Source of the DNA: Candidatus Halobonum tyrrellensis G22
GTDB lineage: Archaea > Halobacteriota > Halobacteria > Halobacteriales > Haloferacaceae
Direction of reading: 5' to 3'
Assembly: GCF_000495475.1 (NCBI RefSeq)
Contig: NZ_ASGZ01000068.1
Coordinates: 1 to 64,000 of the forward strand
DNA: 64,000 bases
The notes below the pieces were generated by a model. It made no database searches and was not told the DNA's origin. It saw nothing but the letters and a program-made list of their open reading frames with translations. Positions 4,770 to 55,756 of this stretch are shown here, one piece after another. How positions within the stretch are numbered: position 1 is the first letter of the stretch; each line of letters opens with the position of its first letter. The position numbers were made by a program, and so were the translations under genes.

Positions 4770-6173
4770 TCAGAGGTAGCCGAGCCGTTCGAGCTGTTCC
4801 TCGGTTCCCGCGGCGATCTCCGGTCCCTCGGTCTCCGCGGGGTGCTCGGAGAGCGTCTCGTCGATCCGACCGTCGAGCGCGGCCCACTCGTCGTCCCACG
4901 CCTCGTCGACCACCCGCTCGGTTCCCTCGTCGTCGATCCGCGTCAAGATCGGTTCGCCGCCGATCCGGCGGATCAGCTTCCGCCTCCGCGTTCGGACGCA
5001 CTGGAGGGCGTAGTCGAGTTCGTCGTACGCCTCGGCGGGCACCTCCCCCTCGACGTTCGATTCGAGCGCCGCGATCCCCGTGACGGGGTCGCCGTACTCC
5101 GCGAACACGGCGTCGCGCGTCTCGCCCGAGAACACGCTCCGCCCCTCGACCCCCTCGGGTACGTCGATTCCGAGCGCCTCGTAGATCGTCGGCGCGAGAT
5201 CGACGTGCGAGACGAGGTCGTCCGTACGCGTGCCCGCGCGCTCCCCCCCGGGGAGTTTGATCACCAGCGGGACGTGGATGAGTTCGTCGAAGAGGCTGAA
5301 CTGGTGGTACGCGCGGCCGTGTTCGCCGAAGTGTTCGCCGTGGTCGGCAGTGACGACGATCAGCGTCTCGTCGTACACGCCCTTCCGTTTCAGGATGCGC
5401 ACGAGTTCGCTGAACAGCGAGTCGGCGAACGCGATCTCGCCGTCGTACCAGTCTCCGAGCGCCCGCCACTCCGCCTCGGTCGGGTCGAGGTCGCCGACCA
5501 TGTAGGAGTTGCCCGCGTAGCGGGCCAGGTCCCACACGACGTCCATCCGGACCTCGTCGGGGTCGAACGACTCGAACCGCTCGCGGAAGCGCCGCGGCGC
5601 GTGGTACTGGTTGTGCGGGGAGTTGATGTTGATGAACCCGAAGAACGGCCGCTCGTCGTCGGCCCGGAGGCGCTTCTTGACCGCCGCCATCGTGAGGTAC
5701 TCGCCGGCCTTGCGGTCCATCCCCCGGTAGTCGCGCGCGAGACGCGCGTACCCCGGTAGGAGGTCGAAGACGTACTCGCGCGCCTCGTCGAGCGACCGGG
5801 GGACGAACGGCACCCGGTAGGTGGAGACGTAGTCGTCGAACCCACGCGCCACGTCGGTGTCGTACCCGATCTTGGGGTTGAGCGACGACCCGAACGTCCG
5901 GTAGCCGTGCGCCGAGAGCGTCTCCGCGAGCGTCGCCGCGCCGTCGACTCCCGACCCCGTGTCGAAGTAGCCGTGCGTCGACGGGTACGTCCCGGTGAAC
6001 ATCGACGCGTGCGAGGGCGGCGTCCACGGGGCGGCCGCGAACGCGTCGTCGAACACGATACCGTCCGACGCGAGCGCGTCGACGTTGGGCGTCGTTCGAC
6101 GGTCGTACCCGTTGACCGAGAGGTGGTCGTAGCGAGCCGCGTCGATGACGACGAAAAGAACGTTCGGTTTCAT
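4770..6173 (-). CDS. Sulfatase-like (alkaline phosphatase superfamily) protein
   Basis: This is a 467-residue protein starting at ATG 6173. It opens with NVLFVVIDAARYDHLSVNGY (first metal-binding Asp), followed by PWTPPSHASMFTGTYPS, the sulfatase signature region. The nucleophile position is Thr51 rather than the Cys that is converted to formylglycine. The second metal site is seen as VVTADHGEHFGEHG. The protein ends in QLERLGYL, a tail shared with other AlkP-fold proteins in this window. There is no signal peptide, so a cytosolic or membrane-associated site is likely. Family knowledge supports hydrolysis or transfer of a sulfate or phosphate ester; the substrate is unknown. It stands apart from the main glycan cluster. 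Confidence 0.88.
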   Translation of the reverse strand: MKPNVLFVVIDAARYDHLSVNGYDRRTTPNVDALASDGIVFDDAFAAAPWTPPSHASMFTGTYPSTHGYFDTGSGVDGAATLAETLSAHGYRTFGSSLNPKIGYDTDVARGFDDYVSTYRVPFVPRSLDEAREYVFDLLPGYARLARDYRGMDRKAGEYLTMAAVKKRLRADDERPFFGFININSPHNQYHAPRRFRERFESFDPDEVRMDVVWDLARYAGNSYMVGDLDPTEAEWRALGDWYDGEIAFADSLFSELVRILKRKGVYDETLIVVTADHGEHFGEHGRAYHQFSLFDELIHVPLVIKLPGGERAGTRTDDLVSHVDLAPTIYEALGIDVPEGVEGRSVFSGETRDAVFAEYGDPVTGIAALESNVEGEVPAEAYDELDYALQCVRTRRRKLIRRIGGEPILTRIDDEGTERVVDEAWDDEWAALDGRIDETLSEHPAETEGPEIAAGTEEQLERLGYL

Positions 6174-28770: not shown

Positions 28771-30417
28771 ATGAGTACTGGCGAACGGACCGTGGTCGTC
28801 GGTTTCGACGCACTCGATTTCGAGTATCTCGACAGGTTCGATCTTCCCGCGTTCGACACGCTCCGCTCGGACGGCGTCGAAGCCCCGCTCTCGTCGACGT
28901 TCCCCCCGTGGACGGGGAGCGCCTGGCCCTCCACGTACACCGGATCGACTCCCGACCACCACGGCGCGTTCTCCTTCTTCGATTTCGCCGACCACACACC
29001 CGCGGACGCCCCGATACTCTCGCGGAACGAGGTTCGCCTCCCCGCCATCTGGGACTACCTGACCGCACGCGGGGCGTCGTCGATCGTCGTGAACGTCCCC
29101 GTCACGCACCCCGCCGACGAGATCGAGGGAGTGCTCGTCCCCGGCTATCTGGCGCCCGAACGCGAGCCGAGCCACCCCTCGGGCGTTCGATCTGAGATCT
29201 CCGAGGCGATCGGCCGGGAGTACCGGATCTACTCCGAGACCGAGACCGACTCCGGAGCGGAGGCGGTTGACAAACTCGACAGCTACGTCGACCTCATCAG
29301 GAGTCGTGGGGAAGCCGCCGAGTACCTCCTCGACGCGTACGACTGGGAGTTCGCGTTCGTCCAGGTCCAGAAGACCGACGCGGTGTTCCACGAGTTCACC
29401 GAGGAGTCCGCGTTCGAGCGCGTCTACCGCGCCGCCGACGAGGTGCTCGATACGGTCCGGTCGGCGGCGCCCGACGCGAACGTCGTCGTCTGCTCGGACC
29501 ACGGCATCGGGCCGGTGACCGGGTCGCAGGTCGCCGTCAACGAGATACTCAGACGCGAGGGGTTCCTCGAGTCCGCCCCCGACGGCGAACTCCCCTCGTT
29601 GAGCGACCGGAAGAAGACGCTCGACGTGACGGTCAACGGGAACGAACGCACCCGGGGTCGACCGAGCGTGGCGGCGCGGGCGGCGTCGACGGCCGAGTCG
29701 GTGCTCCGCACCGCCGGGTTGACGCCCGACGACGTGTACGCGGTCACCAAACGGCTCGGCGTCGACGAGCAGGTCCGACGGCTGCTCCCCGAGGACGTGC
29801 TCGACTCGGCCAGACAGGGGGTCGACTGGGGGGAGTCACGGGCGTACTGCCGACTGGCGCCCGAACTCGGCGTGCGGCTGAACGTCGAGGGGCGCGACCC
29901 CGAGGGGGTCGTCCCCCCCGACGAGTACGAGGCGACCCGGGACGCCATCGTCGACCTGCTCGCGGGCGTGACGGCGCGCGACGGCGACCCCGTCTTCGAG
30001 TGGGTCGAACCCCGCGAGGCGGTGTACGACGGTCCCGCCGCCGAGGACGCCTGCGACGTACTGTTCTACCCCCGGGAGATGAACCACGTCGTCACTACCC
30101 GCGTGGGCGGGCGCCCGGTCAACAGCGCCGACACCTACAACCACAAGCAGAACGGCGTGTTCGTCGCCGCGGGCCCGTCGTTCGCGGAGGCGTCGGCCGA
30201 CGCGGTCCCCTCGCCCATGTCGCTGACGTCGGTCGCCCCGGTGGCGCTCGCGGCGTCGGGCTACCCCGTCCCCGAGCGGATGACCGGCGAGGTGCCCGCG
30301 GGGCTCGGAGTTCCGGCGACGCGTGAACGCTACGGGAACGTCTCGTTCGCCGGCGGCGCGGCCGACGACGACGAGGGCGACGTCCGCGACCGGCTGTCGG
30401 ACCTCGGCTACCTGTAA
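28771..30417 (+). CDS. AlkP-superfamily phosphodiesterase/transferase-like protein
   Basis: This is a 548-residue protein from ATG 28771. TVVVGFDALDFEYLDRF carries the first metal Asp. FPPWTGSAWPSTYTG places Thr48 at the nucleophile position, as in type I phosphodiesterase/nucleotide pyrophosphatases. VVCSDHGIGP gives the second metal site, and the C-terminal half contains YNHKQNGVFVAAGP. It ends in DRLSDLGYL. The middle segment NVEGRDPEGVVPPDEY is almost identical to that in the frameshifted paralogue at 31543-33181. It is a cytosolic or membrane-surface enzyme; a phosphate or phosphoglycan ester substrate is inferred from the glycan-locus context. Confidence 0.88.
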   Translation: MSTGERTVVVGFDALDFEYLDRFDLPAFDTLRSDGVEAPLSSTFPPWTGSAWPSTYTGSTPDHHGAFSFFDFADHTPADAPILSRNEVRLPAIWDYLTARGASSIVVNVPVTHPADEIEGVLVPGYLAPEREPSHPSGVRSEISEAIGREYRIYSETETDSGAEAVDKLDSYVDLIRSRGEAAEYLLDAYDWEFAFVQVQKTDAVFHEFTEESAFERVYRAADEVLDTVRSAAPDANVVVCSDHGIGPVTGSQVAVNEILRREGFLESAPDGELPSLSDRKKTLDVTVNGNERTRGRPSVAARAASTAESVLRTAGLTPDDVYAVTKRLGVDEQVRRLLPEDVLDSARQGVDWGESRAYCRLAPELGVRLNVEGRDPEGVVPPDEYEATRDAIVDLLAGVTARDGDPVFEWVEPREAVYDGPAAEDACDVLFYPREMNHVVTTRVGGRPVNSADTYNHKQNGVFVAAGPSFAEASADAVPSPMSLTSVAPVALAASGYPVPERMTGEVPAGLGVPATRERYGNVSFAGGAADDDEGDVRDRLSDLGYL

Positions 30418-30538: not shown

Positions 30539-31546
30539 CTACCCGAACCGGCGGTAGAGGTGGGCCGCGCCCCGCACCGCGGGCGAGCCGCGTTCGAGGG
30601 TGTAAAAGCCCGCGAGCGACGGCGCGAACTTCGACTTGTACTCACAGAGCCGCGGTTCGTCCGCGCCCACCAGGTCGTACGTCTCCACGCCCCGGTCGGC
30701 CGCGCTCGTGATCACGTGCCAGTCGAGCAGGTCGTTCACCGGCGCGTCGGCGTCGTGTTTCGCCCCGCCCTGCCAGCGGTAGACGGTGTCGTCGCTCTCG
30801 TAGAGGACGATCCCCCCGGCGGGTTCACCCTCCAACAGGAGTTCGGTCGGCCGGATCGCTCCCTCGGGGAGCGCGTCGTACAGGTCACACACCGTCCCCG
30901 TCGAGAGGGGGTACTCCTTCTCTTGGGCGTCGTATCGTTCGCGCACGCGCGCGAGGATGCGTTCGATGGCGGCGTGGCCGCCCTCGCGTACGTCGTAGTC
31001 GACGTCCTCGCCCCGGCGGACGTTCTTCCGGGCGTCGCTGCTGAACGCCGAGAGGAGGTCGTCGGGCCCCTCGGTCAGGTCGACGTGGTAGGTGTGTTTC
31101 GGCGTCGCCTCGAACTCGCCCCACTGGAACGGCCGCACGTCGGGGTACGCGGGGGTGGTCCGGAGGCTGACGTAGCGGGGGTCCGCCAGTTCGTCGACCC
31201 GGTCGAGACACGCCTCGAGGAACCGCCGGTGGCGGCGCTCGCGCTTCCGGCGCTTCAGTTTGTCGAGGTTCATCGGTGCCGGCCCCAGATACGGGACCAG
31301 CAGCGACGGCGGCGGCGAGAACGCGGTCTCGACGCCGAACACGTCCCGCGTGAACAGCGGGAACACGCCCACCGGCTCCTGTCCCTTGAACCCGACCAGC
31401 GGGAGGGGGTCGGTGCCCGACGCCTCCGCGAGTACGTCGAGCGCCTCGTAGCGGTGTAGCGGTGTGGCCGTCGGCGCGCGGTCGACGTAGCCGTTCCACG
31501 TCTCGGCGTCGGCGGGGTCGACCGCCTCGACGTCGATGCCGCTCAT
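30539..31546 (-). CDS. FemAB/GNAT-fold acyltransferase-like protein
   Basis: This is a 335-residue protein from ATG 31544-31546. It has the tandem GNAT layout of FemAB-like proteins: LHRYEALDVLAEASG, then VGFKGQEPVGVFPLF, then the C-terminal AcTP-like LLEGEPAGGIVLYE and NDLLDWHVITSAADRGVETYDL. In surface-polysaccharide loci this family is assigned to amino-acyl or acyl transfer onto glycans or lipid-linked precursors; the donor here is unknown. Its start overlaps the upstream AlkP gene by four bases (GAATGAGC), so the pair forms an operon with linked function. Confidence 0.85.
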   Translation of the reverse strand: MSGIDVEAVDPADAETWNGYVDRAPTATPLHRYEALDVLAEASGTDPLPLVGFKGQEPVGVFPLFTRDVFGVETAFSPPPSLLVPYLGPAPMNLDKLKRRKRERRHRRFLEACLDRVDELADPRYVSLRTTPAYPDVRPFQWGEFEATPKHTYHVDLTEGPDDLLSAFSSDARKNVRRGEDVDYDVREGGHAAIERILARVRERYDAQEKEYPLSTGTVCDLYDALPEGAIRPTELLLEGEPAGGIVLYESDDTVYRWQGGAKHDADAPVNDLLDWHVITSAADRGVETYDLVGADEPRLCEYKSKFAPSLAGFYTLERGSPAVRGAAHLYRRFG

Positions 31547-33181
31547 TCGACGTACCCCAGGTCCCGCAGGCGGTTCTCGACGGCGCCGTCGTCGGTCGGT
31601 CCCGTCGGCGTCGGCGGCTCGTACGGCGGGTACGCCTCCCGGCCGGCGTCCGCCACCGGCGGGAGCACCTCCCCGTCCATCCGGGTGTCGGCGGGGACGC
31701 CCATCGTCGCGAGCACGGTGGGTGCGACGTCGACGATGTGTGGGTCGGCGGCGTCGAGCGCGTCCGTGGCGGACGCGGGGTCGGTCTCGGTGGTCGCGTC
31801 CGTCACCGAGAGGATCCCGTACAGCTTGTGGTTCTGCGGCTCGGAGGGCGGGCCGAACTGCTCGCCCCGGAGGCTCTCGGTGAGGAACTGGTCGAACGCC
31901 GTCGGGACGGTCACGATGTCGACCGCCTCCTCCGCGCGCGGTCCCTCGAAGTACGTCTCGCGAGGCTCGACCGCCTCGAAGACGGGGTCGCCGTCGGGCG
32001 TCTCCACCGCCGCGAGTTCCTCGATCAGTCGGTCGCGTGTCTCCTCGTACTCGTCGGGTGGAACGACCCCCTCGGGGTCGCGCCCCTCGACGTTCAGCCG
32101 CACGCCGAGTTCGATCCGCGAGCGCATGTACGCCAGCGAGTCGGCGAAGTCGACGCCCTCGGTGCCCGCCCGCACCACGTCGTCGGGGACGACCCGGAGG
32201 ACGGCGCCGGTGAGACCGAGTCGGTCGAGGACCGCGCCGATCCGCTGGCTGGTGAGACCGACCCGCGCGGCGGCCTCGACGGCCCGTTCGGCCGCCGACG
32301 GACCCGCCTCCCCGTCGGCCGTCCGCCCCACCGCCCGCGAGTTCCTCGTCGCGCACGGGTGCCCACGAGGGCATCCCGCCGCTGCTGGTCGTCTCGACGT
32401 CGCCGCGGTCCCGGAGGAACTCGTTGACGCGGAACTCGTACCCCTCGTAGTCGCCCATCCCGTGGTCGCTCGCGAGCACGACCGTCTCGGCGTCACACGC
32501 GTCGAGCGCCCGGCCGATGGCGGCGTCGACCGCCGCGTACGTCTCCGCGACGGCGTCGTCGTCGTTCGGACACTCGTGGAACACCGAGTCGGTCACCTGG
32601 AACTGGAGGAAGCCGAAGTCGGGGTCGAACCGGTCGACGAGATAGCGGAACGCGGCGTCCCGAAGCTCCGCACACCGGCGGTACTCGGCGACCTTCTGAT
32701 CGCGTGTCGCGTCGCCGCCGCCCGTGTGGCGGGGGTAGACGCGGTACTCGCCGAGTTCAGCGCGAAGCTCCGAGAGCAACCCCTCCGGATGACAGGTGGG
32801 GTCGTCGGGCGCGGTGTAACCGGGGACGAGCGCGCCGTCGAACTCGTCGGGCGGGTGGGTCACCGGCACGTTCACCACGACGCTCGACAGGCCGAACTCG
32901 TCGAGCGCGGTCCACAGGGGGTGTGCCCCCCGCTCGGCGGCGTCGACGACCGACCAGTCGTACCCCTCGAACGAGAGGAACCCGAACACCCCGTGTTTGC
33001 CCGGGTTGACACCGGTCGTCACCGTGGTCCACGCGCTCGGCGTCCACGGCGGGATCCCGGACTCCAGCGGCGCGGTCGCGCCCCGATCCAACAGTCCGTC
33101 GATGTTCGGGGTCGTCCCGTCCGGGAGTCGGTCGAGCACCGGCCGGCAGGCCGCGTCGACCCCGAGGAGAAGCGTCTCCAT
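31543..33181 (-). pseudogene. AlkP-superfamily protein interrupted by a one-base frameshift
   Basis: It starts at METLLLGVDA (ATG 33179-33181; a GTG- or ATG-type start six codons upstream is also open). Thr47 lies in IPPWTPSAWTTVTTG, and DHG is in LASDHGMGDYEG. At the run of four C's at 32326-32329 (G's on the coding strand) one base is extra. The intact frame upstream ends in DEELAGGG; the protein-like frame resumes at RTADGEAGPSAAER and runs to NRLRDLGYVE. Deleting one G restores a continuous protein of about 545 residues, a close relative of the intact 28771 gene. It is a real inactivation, a phase-variable tract or a sequencing error. The downstream gene is translationally overlapped. Confidence 0.85.
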
Positions 33182-33206
33182 CTGGCTCCCGTTACCCAAC
33201 CTGACC

Positions 33207-40326: not shown

Positions 40327-41745
40327 TCATCCGTCCATGACGTACCCGAGGTCTTCGAGTCGTTGTTTCGCGGCGTCGGAGTGGCTGGCCGACGCGGTGC
40401 TCTCGACCGGCTGACCGTATCGGTCGAACCAGTCGTCGTACAAGCCGTCGAACTCGTCGCGCACGTCGGGGTGGTCGTCGGAGACGTCGGTCGTCTCGTC
40501 CGGGAGGTTGAACAGTTCGGTCCGGTCGTCGCTCCGGACGTACTTGTACTCCGCCGTCCGGAGCGCGGTCACCAGCGAGTCGTGGACGTCGGGGTGGCTC
40601 GTGAACTCGGGGTTGAACTCCTGGGCCCGGGTGAACGTCCGGTCGCGGGTCTCTTTCCCGCGCTGGCTCACCGCGTAGGGGCGCGACTCCTCGCGGAGGT
40701 CGTACCCCGCCATCCCGTTCGTCGACGCTCCGCCCGCGGCCACCAGCGTCTCGATCAGGTCTATATGCTGGACCACCTCGTCGGTCCGGCTGCCGACGTC
40801 GGGGAACCCGTACGTGACCGCGGGGACGTGCAACAGCGCGTCGTCGGTCGAGAGGTTGTGCGAGATCAGGCCGTGTTCGCCCAACAGGTCGCCGTGGTCG
40901 GCGGTCACGACTAGCACCGTGTTCTCCATCCCCTCCGCCTGGAGGTGGTCGAACAGTTCGCCGACCAGCCAGTCGCTGTACGCGACCGAGGCGTCGTACA
41001 CCGCCTGGAGCGCCGCCCACTCGTCGTCCGTGTACGCACACCCGTTCGCGATCTCGCGGTAGATGTTGCTCGACCGGTCGTACGCGAACGCCATCGCTTC
41101 CTCGAGCGACATCTCAGTCTCGCCCGCCACGAACTCCTCGGCCCACTGCGGCGGTGCGTAGTAGGGGTAGTGCGCTCCCTGGTAGTGGGCGTACATGAAG
41201 AACGGGTCGTCGCCCTCCGCGAGGTCCGATATCCACCGTTTGGCGATCTCGTTGACCACGAAATCCTGTCTGTGCTTCGACACCTCGGTCGAGAACCCGG
41301 CCGAGTGCGAGCGGATCCGCCGAAGGTACTTGAGCGCGGGGACGACGCTGTCGCGGGTCAGGAAGTCCTTCACGGAGGTGATCGCGCGGAACCGGTCGAA
41401 CCCCCGGTCGAGTTGGGTCGCCTCGCTGAAGAAGGGGTTGATCGAGAGCCCCGCGGTGGTGTACCCCGCCCGGTCGAACCGGGTCGAGACGGGTTCTATC
41501 TCCGACGGGAGCACCTCGTTGTGGAGTCCGGCGCCGTGGGCCGAGGGGTACGTCCCGGTGAGCATCGACGTGATCGAGGGCTGCGACCAGATGGCGTGGG
41601 AGAAACAGTCGTCGAACGCGGCGCCCTTCGGCGCTGTCGCGATCCGTTCCATCTCGGGCGTGGTCCGCCGGTCGTACCCGTGGACAGATGTCCTGTCGGC
41701 TCGGACGCTGTCAAGGGTGAGCCAGATGACGTTAGGGGCGTCCAT
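40327..41745 (-). CDS. Sulfatase-like AlkP-superfamily protein
   Basis: This is a 472-residue protein from ATG 41743-41745. NVIWLTLDSVRADRTSVHGY has the first metal Asp. HAIWSQPSITSMLTGTYPS gives Ser54 at the nucleophile position instead of Cys. VVTADHGDLLGEHG has the second metal site. The C-terminus reads QRLEDLGYVMDG. The protein is closely similar in plan to the one at 4770. Ser-type members may still be formylglycine sulfatases after anaerobic maturation, or may be phosphotransferases. The upstream TTTAATTTTATA sequence is a good TATA box. Confidence 0.88.
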   Translation of the reverse strand: MDAPNVIWLTLDSVRADRTSVHGYDRRTTPEMERIATAPKGAAFDDCFSHAIWSQPSITSMLTGTYPSAHGAGLHNEVLPSEIEPVSTRFDRAGYTTAGLSINPFFSEATQLDRGFDRFRAITSVKDFLTRDSVVPALKYLRRIRSHSAGFSTEVSKHRQDFVVNEIAKRWISDLAEGDDPFFMYAHYQGAHYPYYAPPQWAEEFVAGETEMSLEEAMAFAYDRSSNIYREIANGCAYTDDEWAALQAVYDASVAYSDWLVGELFDHLQAEGMENTVLVVTADHGDLLGEHGLISHNLSTDDALLHVPAVTYGFPDVGSRTDEVVQHIDLIETLVAAGGASTNGMAGYDLREESRPYAVSQRGKETRDRTFTRAQEFNPEFTSHPDVHDSLVTALRTAEYKYVRSDDRTELFNLPDETTDVSDDHPDVRDEFDGLYDDWFDRYGQPVESTASASHSDAAKQRLEDLGYVMDG

Positions 41746-46332: not shown

Positions 46333-46376
46333 CGTATGTGGCTCCTGTGAGTCGAGTTACTATCTGCATCTATCCG

Positions 46377-46387
46377 GCTTTGTTATT
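46377..46387 (-). promoter_or_regulatory. AATAACAAAGC element before the surface protein gene
   Basis: The coding strand reads AATAACAAAGC, 45 bases before the ATG at 46332. TATAC lies just upstream. Confidence 0.55.
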
Positions 46388-46529
46388 GTATACTTACCGA
46401 CCCGGTGCCCAGGAGGGCGGTCGTCCCGGCTGTCGGCGCGACCCGACCGCGGAGGGGCGGAGAGGTCCGGGTATCGGGGTCCGGCAGTCGGAGACGCGAC
46501 CCCGCCTGGGCGCCGGACCAGCGCGTCCG

Positions 46530-46658
46530 GTGGACGACGCGCCCGACCGGTTGGTCGAGGCGCGTGACGAGCAGTTCGACGCGCTCGGCGGCGGCTCCCG
46601 GACCGCGTCGTTAACCGACAAGGAGATTGACCACCTCGAAGCACTAGGGGACGTATGA
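46530..46658 (+). pseudogene. Possible remnant of a sulfatase-like C-terminus
   Basis: A 42-residue frame (GTG start) reads as a normal acidic protein ending in DKEIDHLEALGDV. The end resembles the RLxxLGYL tail of AlkP-fold proteins nearby. Upstream the frame becomes Arg/Pro-rich, so it looks like a fragment. It could instead be a genuine microprotein. Confidence 0.35.
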
Positions 46659-54014: not shown

Positions 54015-54299
54015 TCAGAGGTAGCCCAGCGACTCGAGGCGACTCTCGACTTCCTCGTTGTCCTCGTCGTCGTTCTCCCGGTCGAGCGGGTCGGCGGCGG
54101 CGCCGGTCGTCGTGCTCCCCTCCTCGACCCGCGAGAGCACCTCTTCGAGGGTGTACTCGACGTACTCCGCGGGGGTCTCGAAGTCGGTCCCCTCGACTCG
54201 GGCGGCGACGCGCTCGTGGATAGAGTCGCGGATCGCGACGTTCGTCGTGTCCTCGTCCGTGTCCTCACGCGAGTCGGCCGCGTCGCTTCCGTCGGTCAT
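54015..54299 (-). CDS. Ribbon-helix-helix-like protein with sulfatase-type C-terminal tail
   Basis: This is a 94-residue protein from ATG 54297-54299. TTNVAIRDSIHERVAARVEG forms the strand and first helix, and ETPAEYVEYTLEEVLSRVEE the second helix of a CopG/MetJ-like ribbon-helix-helix. After an acidic linker it ends in EEVESRLESLGYL. That end is nearly the same as the tails of the AlkP-fold proteins at 4770 (QLERLGYL) and 28771 (DRLSDLGYL). It is transcribed divergently from the AlkP gene at 54467, whose product lacks such a tail. It may regulate its neighbour or bind the same partner; this is inference. Confidence 0.75.
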   Translation of the reverse strand: MTDGSDAADSREDTDEDTTNVAIRDSIHERVAARVEGTDFETPAEYVEYTLEEVLSRVEEGSTTTGAAADPLDRENDDEDNEEVESRLESLGYL

Positions 54300-54382
54300 C
54301 GTCTACCGATGCCGCCGTGTCCACTTGAGTATACTGTACATTCGCAGGGGGCCGCCGCCCCCGGTGTCCGGCCCGCGTATAA

Positions 54383-54396
54383 GTAGCTGTATAATT
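54383..54396 (+). promoter_or_regulatory. TATA-like element of the 54467 AlkP gene
   Basis: GTATAATTAAGCC lies about 70-84 bases before ATG 54467 in the divergent region; a second AT-rich GTATAAG is just upstream. Confidence 0.4.
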
Positions 54397-54466
54397 AAGC
54401 CCCCCCGTCGAAACACGGGACTGTGAGCGAACACACCGTTCCGGCTCCCGTCAGGGGTGAGCCACG

Positions 54467-55756
54467 ATGAGCGCCGGCGCCGACGGCGACGGAGAGGGTG
54501 ACGAGCGGCAGAACGTCATCCTCGTCTCGGTCGACAGCCTCCGTGCGGACCGCTGCGGACATCTGGGGGGGACGAGTCGGATGCCGACGCTCGACTACCT
54601 CGCCGAGGAGGGGCTGGCGTTCGACCAAGCCGTCGCGCCCGGACCCACGACCACCGACACGATGACGGTGATGCACACCGGGGAGTTCCCGACGATGACC
54701 GCCGACGACGAGCGGGCCGGGATGAAACGCAAGATCCGCCGACACCTCCTCTCGCGCGAGACGCTCGCCCAGCGGTTCAAACGGAAGGGGTACTCCACGG
54801 CGGCGTTCACGACGAACCCCTGGACGTCGAGCTACTTCGGCTTCGACAAGGGGTACGACCGCTTCGAGGACTTCATGGAGGGTGACGCGTCGAGTTCGCT
54901 CATCCGGAACACGCTCGAAGACACGAGTGTCCCCGGCTCGACGCTGGTCCAGAACCTCCTCAGTTGGACGCAGGGGCAGAACATGTACATGTCGTGGCGG
55001 CAGTTCTTCGGCGACATCCGCGAGTGGATCCGCGAGGCGCCGGAGCCGTACTTCCTCTGGATCTTCCTGGTCGACGCCCACATGCCGTACCAGCCGAGTC
55101 CGGCGAACCGCACTCACCCGCGCCCGCTGAGCCTGGCGGCGAACGCGTGGCTCTACGGCGGCGCGGACGACCGGGTGGAGGACCTGTTCCGACCGATACT
55201 GCTCCAAGCGTACGACGACACCGTGTACGACGTCGACGACTTCGTCGCGACCCTCCGCGGAAGCGTCGACTCGGACACGCTCCTCGGCTTCCACGCCGAC
55301 CACGGCGAGCTGTTCGGCGAGGGGGGCGAGTACGGCCACGGGGTGAACCTCCGCGAGGAACTCGTTCGCGTCCCGTTCGTCATCGCCAACGGTCCCACCG
55401 GCCGGATCGACGAGCCGTTCCCGCTCCGGGACATGCCGCGGATGCTCCCGAAACTCGCGACCGGCGGCGGCATCGAGGCGGTCGAGGAGTTCACCAAACC
55501 CCACGTGCGGACGCGAAACTACGACCCGCAGTTCGGCGTCTGGGGGACCGACTGGACGTACGTCGACCGCGCGTCCGACGAGATCGTGTACGAGCGCGGC
55601 TCGCTCGGGTCCGAGCAGGAACAGTCCGTCGGTCCGACCAACGAGGAGCACGCCGAGGTCGGCCGCGAGGTGGTCGGCCGGTGGCGACGGGGCCTCGAAG
55701 AGCGGCGCCAGGTGTCGGCCGCCGCCGCTCAGGTGGCCGCCGAAGCCGACCTGTAA
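54467..55756 (+). CDS. Sulfatase-like AlkP-superfamily protein, tail-less
   Basis: This is a 429-residue protein from ATG 54467. NVILVSVDSLRADRCGHLGG has the first metal Asp. GPTTTDTMTVMHTGEFPT places Thr62 at the nucleophile position by spacing from the TG. GFHADHGELFGEGG has the second metal site. YFLWIFLVDAHMPYQPS is the sulfatase substrate-pocket region. Unlike the other four family members here, the end is Ala-rich (SAAAAQVAAEADL) with no RLxxLGYL tail. There is no signal peptide. The biochemical role is ester hydrolysis or group transfer on a glycan; the substrate is unknown. Confidence 0.87.
   Translation: MSAGADGDGEGDERQNVILVSVDSLRADRCGHLGGTSRMPTLDYLAEEGLAFDQAVAPGPTTTDTMTVMHTGEFPTMTADDERAGMKRKIRRHLLSRETLAQRFKRKGYSTAAFTTNPWTSSYFGFDKGYDRFEDFMEGDASSSLIRNTLEDTSVPGSTLVQNLLSWTQGQNMYMSWRQFFGDIREWIREAPEPYFLWIFLVDAHMPYQPSPANRTHPRPLSLAANAWLYGGADDRVEDLFRPILLQAYDDTVYDVDDFVATLRGSVDSDTLLGFHADHGELFGEGGEYGHGVNLREELVRVPFVIANGPTGRIDEPFPLRDMPRMLPKLATGGGIEAVEEFTKPHVRTRNYDPQFGVWGTDWTYVDRASDEIVYERGSLGSEQEQSVGPTNEEHAEVGREVVGRWRRGLEERRQVSAAAAQVAAEADL

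Follow-up and report, generated by a model that had tools for sequence, protein, structure and literature searches.

The C-terminal tail RLxxLGYL is found on AlkP-fold enzymes, on a small ribbon-helix-helix (RHH) protein and on CysD-like proteins of Candidatus Halobonum tyrrellensis, and the AlkP gene that adjoins the RHH gene encodes no such tail. The chances seem evenly balanced that these genes form a sulfation module whose LGYL tail works as a docking helix, borne by the enzyme itself in cis or lent to it in trans by the RHH protein. A sulfation module is the simplest reading because RHH operons elsewhere include sulfate-activation genes and because AlkP-fold proteins sulfate N-glycans (PMC11980604).

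The window, which is the whole stretch of 64,000 nucleotides analysed, is a haloarchaeal surface-glycan cluster that includes glycosyltransferases, a flippase-type Polysacc_synt protein, two UDP-GlcNAc 2-epimerases and DUF1616. It contains five AlkP-fold genes, including a frameshifted one. A tail of the form (R/Q)LxxLGY(L/V) ends four of the five, and the exception is 54467(+). The features concerned are as follows.

4770..6173, minus strand: tailed AlkP-fold protein, ending EEQLERLGYL, with a Thr nucleophile, PWTPPSHASMFTG; AF2 model
28771..30417, plus strand: tailed AlkP-fold protein of the PF01663 type, with the end DVRDRLSDLGYL
31543..33199, minus strand: frameshifted AlkP-fold gene (PF01663), whose C-terminal half ends VENRLRDLGYVE
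40327..41745, minus strand: tailed AlkP-fold protein, ending KQRLEDLGYVMDG (also given as QRLEDLGYVMDG), with a Ser nucleophile, IWSQPSITSMLTG
54015..54299, minus strand: 94-aa acidic ribbon-helix-helix-like protein ending LGYL (tail carrier); family alignments and AF2
54018..54053, minus strand: tail EVESRLESLGYL of that RHH protein, with the end VESRLESLGYL; family alignment
54300..54466, no strand assigned: divergent intergenic region with TATA-like boxes, between the RHH gene and the 54467 AlkP gene
54467..55756, plus strand: 429-aa AlkP-fold protein without an LGY tail; PF00884, 1.6e-28; in the 34-row tail-less clade
54650..54652, plus strand: Thr codon aligned with the catalytic nucleophile of the 54467 AlkP, PTTTDTMTVMHTG; any of three adjacent Thr

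The initial annotation had proposed that proteins at 4770, 28771, 31543, 40327 and 54015 end in the same motif, and each of the five tails is a genuine, in-frame C-terminus. The tail at 31543 does not end a separate protein, as had been supposed, but the C-terminal half of a frameshifted PF01663 gene (minus strand), whose N-terminal half lies in ORF 30539-33199 and whose tail-bearing half lies in ORF 31543-32496. The frameshift reflects either a sequencing error or a pseudogene. ORF 30539-33199 (minus strand) also extends into an Acetyltransf_6/FemAB-like domain. A supposed relic of the tail at 46530 (DHLEALGDV) closes ORF 46338-46658(+), whose body is of low complexity and whose ending reads LGD in place of LGY, and its kinship is unsupported.

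The 54467 AlkP was correctly described as tail-less, because it ends VAAEADL, and the small divergent protein at 54015 does end SRLESLGYL. The two genes, 54015(-) and 54467(+), are separated by 167 bp. The 54467 protein scores 100.3 bits with PF00884 (cut-off 25) and belongs to that family, and the AlkP metal-site columns D..HG are invariant in A3. It has Thr in PTTTDTMTVMHTG and no CxPxR, and so lacks the C/S-x-P-x-R signature of FGly (type I) sulfatases. AlkPs adjoining RHH genes (54467, L134, L138, L140 and others) have an alternative C-terminal helix, ExxRIxxAxxxLxxxGx(I/L). This helix is a candidate RHH-binding surface.

Chance does not explain the tail. When all six frames of the complete 3.68-Mb genome were scanned for codons of LxxLGY(hydrophobic) with a stop nearby, 18 matches were obtained, compared with 1 in the reversed control. 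Fifteen of the 18 are in-frame C-termini, belonging to 11 AlkP-fold or AlkP-like proteins, two PAPS_reduct/CysD-like proteins, the RHH protein of the window and L054, an arginine-rich and probably spurious ORF. Most of the 11 are above the PF00884 or PF01663 cut-off; L037 and L046 are sub-threshold PglZ/sulfatase-like proteins, and L042 has an AlkP-like TADHAN motif and no Pfam match. A second tailed RHH protein of this genome, L002, escaped the codon pattern. In this genome, LxxLGY(L/V/I/M) C-termini are thus confined to AlkP-fold/AlkP-like, small RHH and CysD-like families. In AT-rich, low-GC genomes, counts of the tail pattern were too noisy to reveal anything beyond the operons already known.

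The RHH family is spread widely among archaea. Conservation is higher in the tail than in the RHH domain, and L88, L91, G92 and Y93 are the sole invariant columns among 51 aligned members. As would be expected of a positionally conserved element, the tail is the C-terminal end of 81 of 83 distinct family proteins, with 1-3 residues after LGY, and the two members that lack it sit in short MAG contigs. A single-protein scan of the genome collection gave 13 loci. Profile searches of the host family distinguish two groups, one of window-like proteins, with patchy distribution and strong matches, and the other a near-universal, single-copy paralogue. The latter is represented here by L002 (G000:C20:59589-59816), which has the tail LGYLE and adjoins a family-2-like glycosyltransferase, with no AlkP directly beside it. 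The idea that small RHH-like proteins ending in LGY(L/V/I) lie next to AlkP genes applies to a widespread set of proteins and not to this paralogue. Bacterial occurrences in Aerophobetes and Cloacimonadota (L095 and L100) are near archaeal ones in sequence and may represent misbinned MAG contigs, so they carry no claim.

The 54015 protein, which has a net charge of -23, has no Pfam or NCBIfam match of its own. The suggestion that it is RHH-like is supported instead by its relatives and by modelling. PF01402 matches 7 of the 51 members (best 7.9e-7), and L002 and L098 RHH1 score above its cut-off. The AF2 model predicts a beta-alpha-alpha-like core, comprising a strand-like stretch and then two helices (residues about 20-61, pLDDT 90-95), after which come a linker of low confidence and, at residues 71-91, a well-predicted C-terminal helix. 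The best PDB matches of this model in Foldseek are mostly RHH proteins, although weak (E>1), and a sequence-profile search of the PDB found no relative of the family. CdrS, a 55-aa cell-division RHH protein encoded beside ftsZ2 (PMC7439475), was considered as an identity for both groups. It was rejected for the near-universal paralogue on the basis of that length and neighbour, and for the window protein, which has 94 aa, a tail and other neighbours. A type II toxin-antitoxin pair with an RHH antitoxin was likewise rejected, as the neighbour in the window and in homologous loci is an AlkP-fold protein (429 aa in the window), and no toxin gene is present.

In loci centred on RHH genes, the adjoining gene almost always encodes an AlkP that has no tail, and tails of their own are found on other AlkPs encoded there. 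Genes are arranged either as a divergent pair or in the order AlkP(tail)-RHH(tail)-AlkP(no tail), which occurs at L115, L121, L126 and L127. At several loci the RHH gene lies within an operon, 1-18 bp from the AlkP gene. Three-gene operons of this order are seen at L121, L126, L127 and L177, in which the RHH gene and the second AlkP gene overlap or are a few bases apart. RHH and tail-less sulfatase-like genes are also present on plasmids of Halomarina (NZ_CP100449), Halorientalis (NZ_CP095483) and Halorussus (NZ_CP096661). Divergent RHH/AlkP promoters at L105, L106, L112, L114, L116 and L120 have a common ATAACAA box before the AlkP gene, and L105 and L106 have a further ATAACAA box facing the RHH gene.

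Co-occurrence across genomes follows the same pattern. AlkPs of the 54467 type (E<1e-44, a threshold chosen after the gap was seen) are found in 24 of 171 genomes of the host family, and all 24 have a window-type RHH protein, which is present in 32 genomes (p=9e-23). With a looser threshold of 1e-40, 25 of 31 genomes with such an AlkP have the RHH protein (p=2.7e-18); both p-values treat genomes as independent although they are related. The two genes are 1-310 bp apart in 16 of the 24 genomes, and the pair is patchily distributed across 12 genera.

The tail is also associated with the nucleophile of the AlkP enzyme. PF00884 places from this genome and eight others (9 genomes) were typed by the residue aligned with the nucleophile. 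None of the 12 Cys-nucleophile (FGly-sulfatase type) proteins has a tail, compared with 60 of 76 of the Ser/Thr type (p=1.5e-7). The tailed proteins have T in 48 cases, S in 12 and C in none, and the CxPxR motif is absent from them. An RHH gene lies within 900 bp of 2 of 60 tailed Ser/Thr AlkPs and of 8 of 16 tail-less ones (p=2.5e-5). These contrasts draw on few independent lineages, however, and their p-values, calculated per protein, take no account of relatedness; an independent-pairs test, which had only 5-6 pairs, was not significant. In the tree, RHH-linked tail-less AlkPs chiefly form one clade of 34, of which 26 are within 2.5 kb of an RHH gene, and Cys-type AlkPs mainly form one clade. 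Smaller, separate RHH-linked tail-less lineages are the L133/L134/L138/L140/L187 group, L180 and L101, and L125, L135, L098 and L276 are additional cases of the PF01663 type. Two kinds of protein depart from the split: two tailed AlkPs adjoin an RHH gene, and some tail-less Ser/Thr AlkPs (L209, L233) have an RHH gene several kb off or none in the fetched stretch.

The principal context, which the initial annotation does not mention, is sulfate activation, because the tail is common to CysD, and RHH genes outside haloarchaea are found in CysDN, Sat and APS-kinase operons. On ANME and methanogen contigs the order, with variants, is RHH(tail)-CysD(tail)-TauE permease-CysN-AlkP(no tail)-RHH(tail). 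CysD in these organisms ends KLRALGYM, and CysD endings are GYM or GYF. The CysD proteins of L098 and L104 lie beside CysN and score 360 and 325 bits with PRK05253 (cut-off 195), and the L098 CysN scores 349.8 with TIGR02034 (cut-off 336.1). ANME CysDN has hitherto been interpreted as serving sulfate assimilation (PMC6286981). Another 20 Halobacteriota loci were compared, and 17 of them have RHH(tail)-[Sat]-[DHH]-AlkP/PF01663(no tail)-APS kinase as their gene order; several of these include a TauE-type permease. No PAPS reductase occurs among the identified genes of RHH operons, and the DHH phosphoesterase could remove PAP. APS kinases of RHH operons (L272-L289) often have (E/K)(L/M)GYL-like ends, such as VGKLKEMGYL in L281.

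In the H. tyrrellensis genome itself, CysN, Sat and a bona fide APS kinase were not found. Two adjacent tailed CysD-like PAPS_reduct genes (L144 4702-5670 and 5837-6844, G000:C12) end RLRDLGYM. Their scores of 82 and 77 bits are under the CysD cut-off of 195, and there is no CysN, so they are not assigned to CysD. This pair is the only candidate for sulfate activation in the genome, and the donor route here would depend on sub-cut-off proteins.

These arrangements are suggestive of the following mechanism. The RLxxLGYL tail would be a docking helix of archaeal sulfation machinery. In Ser/Thr-nucleophile AlkP-fold enzymes, which are probable glycan sulfotransferases, it would form the C-terminus and be joined to the enzyme by a linker. 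A further AlkP group, which lost or never had the tail, may obtain it in trans from the RHH-LGYL protein of the adjacent gene, and this protein would dimerise via its RHH domain and bind the tail-less enzyme. The tail probably brings the AlkP enzyme to sulfate-activating enzymes, one of which is probably its receptor, and APS or PAPS would then be handed over locally. The AF2 model of the 4770 AlkP (mean pLDDT 89) places the tail in a separate helix, 455-463, with confidence about 80, after a linker of about 64-67. A separate predicted tail helix after a low-confidence linker, as modelled both here and in the RHH protein, is compatible with docking. More tentatively, an interchangeable C-terminal docking tail of AlkP-fold sulfotransferases, CysD and, in trans, the RHH mini-protein might assemble a donor-channelling complex, in which the RHH fold would have been turned from DNA binder to enzyme adaptor.

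Most RHH proteins act as transcription factors or antitoxins, and in the main rival to the docking-tail reading the RHH protein binds DNA and autoregulates the divergent AlkP/sulfation operon. The tail would then be an inter-dimer contact or a sensor helix, functionally separate from the tail of AlkPs. This possibility accounts for the divergent promoters in the window and at many homologous loci, and some members have polar residues in the DNA-contact strand, including Lys at the CopG-like position 8 (RHH1 type) and Ser in the universal paralogue. However, the residue there is mixed across the family (E 18, K 15, S 15 and T 9), with Glu commonest at the central strand position. Also, nine loci were examined, three of which gave no intergenic stretch, and no palindrome is shared between the divergent region of the window and its homologues. 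Autoregulation is further at odds with loci in which the RHH gene is inside the operon, 1-18 bp from AlkP, and it leaves unexplained both why the enzymes AlkP and CysD have the same tail and why the AlkP beside the RHH gene usually has none. We regard it as rather unlikely.

Perhaps, instead, the tail is a catalytic element that folds over the AlkP active site and aids binding of the donor nucleotide, with the RHH protein inserting its tail in trans. Exchange between cis and trans and the restriction to Ser/Thr-type enzymes are consistent with this idea, as are the GYM/GYF ends of CysD, another nucleotide enzyme, and the fairly good confidence, about 80, of the AF2 tail helix. The linkers, however, are long, variable, acidic and of low confidence, which fits docking better, and such a lid, which would be another form of the cis/trans idea, seems improbable. 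Finally, the tail could be a generic C-terminal feature, reflecting a degron, stability or composition, with no common partner. The motif is short, few residues can converge, and pattern counts are noisy in low-GC genomes. That the tail occurs in only three families, with 18 matches versus 1 in the control, and that these families are linked in operons makes this explanation very improbable.

The components are of known kinds, and the combination of RHH protein, tail and AlkP/sulfation is, to our knowledge, new. The literature searched, from which subscription journals were mostly absent, contains no link between RHH, the tail and AlkP/sulfation, and nothing on LGYL in sulfatases, an RHH-sulfatase link or the structure of the CysD tail. 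It also gives no account of how archaeal AlkP-fold sulfotransferases obtain activated sulfate. If the docking-tail reading is true, a tail common to transferase, activating enzyme and small adaptor makes donor supply testable by a few deletions. Public annotation merges probable sulfotransferases and true sulfatases as "sulfatase", and the tail, taken together with the nucleophile residue, would tell them apart. The RHH-tail gene would likewise mark sulfation operons in genomes usually interpreted in terms of sulfate assimilation.

The closest known proteins are Agl30 (VNG1056C) and Agl31 (VNG1057C), AlkP-fold proteins shown in 2025 to sulfate N-glycans of Halobacterium salinarum and, when expressed in Haloferax volcanii, to do so in that host as well. 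Like the AlkPs of the window, they have an AlkP/sulfatase-like fold and belong to a haloarchaeal glycosylation cluster, whereas the part of that report available to us does not mention an RHH partner, a C-terminal tail or a sulfate donor (PMC11980604). The glycan cluster of the window and the sulfate-activation operons elsewhere lead us to predict that the window AlkPs are sulfotransferases of the Agl30/Agl31 kind.

We know of no canonical assimilatory CysDN operon that includes an RHH-LGYL or AlkP gene. The methanogen and ANME CysD and CysN proteins resemble the CysDN ATP sulfurylase (1ZUN) in that they pass NCBIfam cut-offs, and differ in that they sit in an RHH operon. 1ZUN chain A has EEKKRQGY at its matched end, which resembles the CysD tail KLRALGYM. 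In contrast, the haloarchaeal CysD-like proteins are under the cut-off and lack CysN.

RHH regulators and antitoxins (PF01402; CopG, CdrS, ParD and MazE) have the beta-alpha-alpha order that is predicted for RHH-LGYL proteins, relatives of which match PF01402. The RHH-LGYL proteins differ in their conserved C-terminal LGYL helix and in their partner, which is an AlkP-fold enzyme and not a toxin or ftsZ2. A precedent for contact between donor enzyme and sulfotransferase comes from human PAPS synthase 2 and SULT2A1. Those proteins have unrelated folds, no common tail and no adaptor, but, as is proposed here, the donor-making enzyme touches the sulfotransferase and thereby favours sulfation (PMC6016456).
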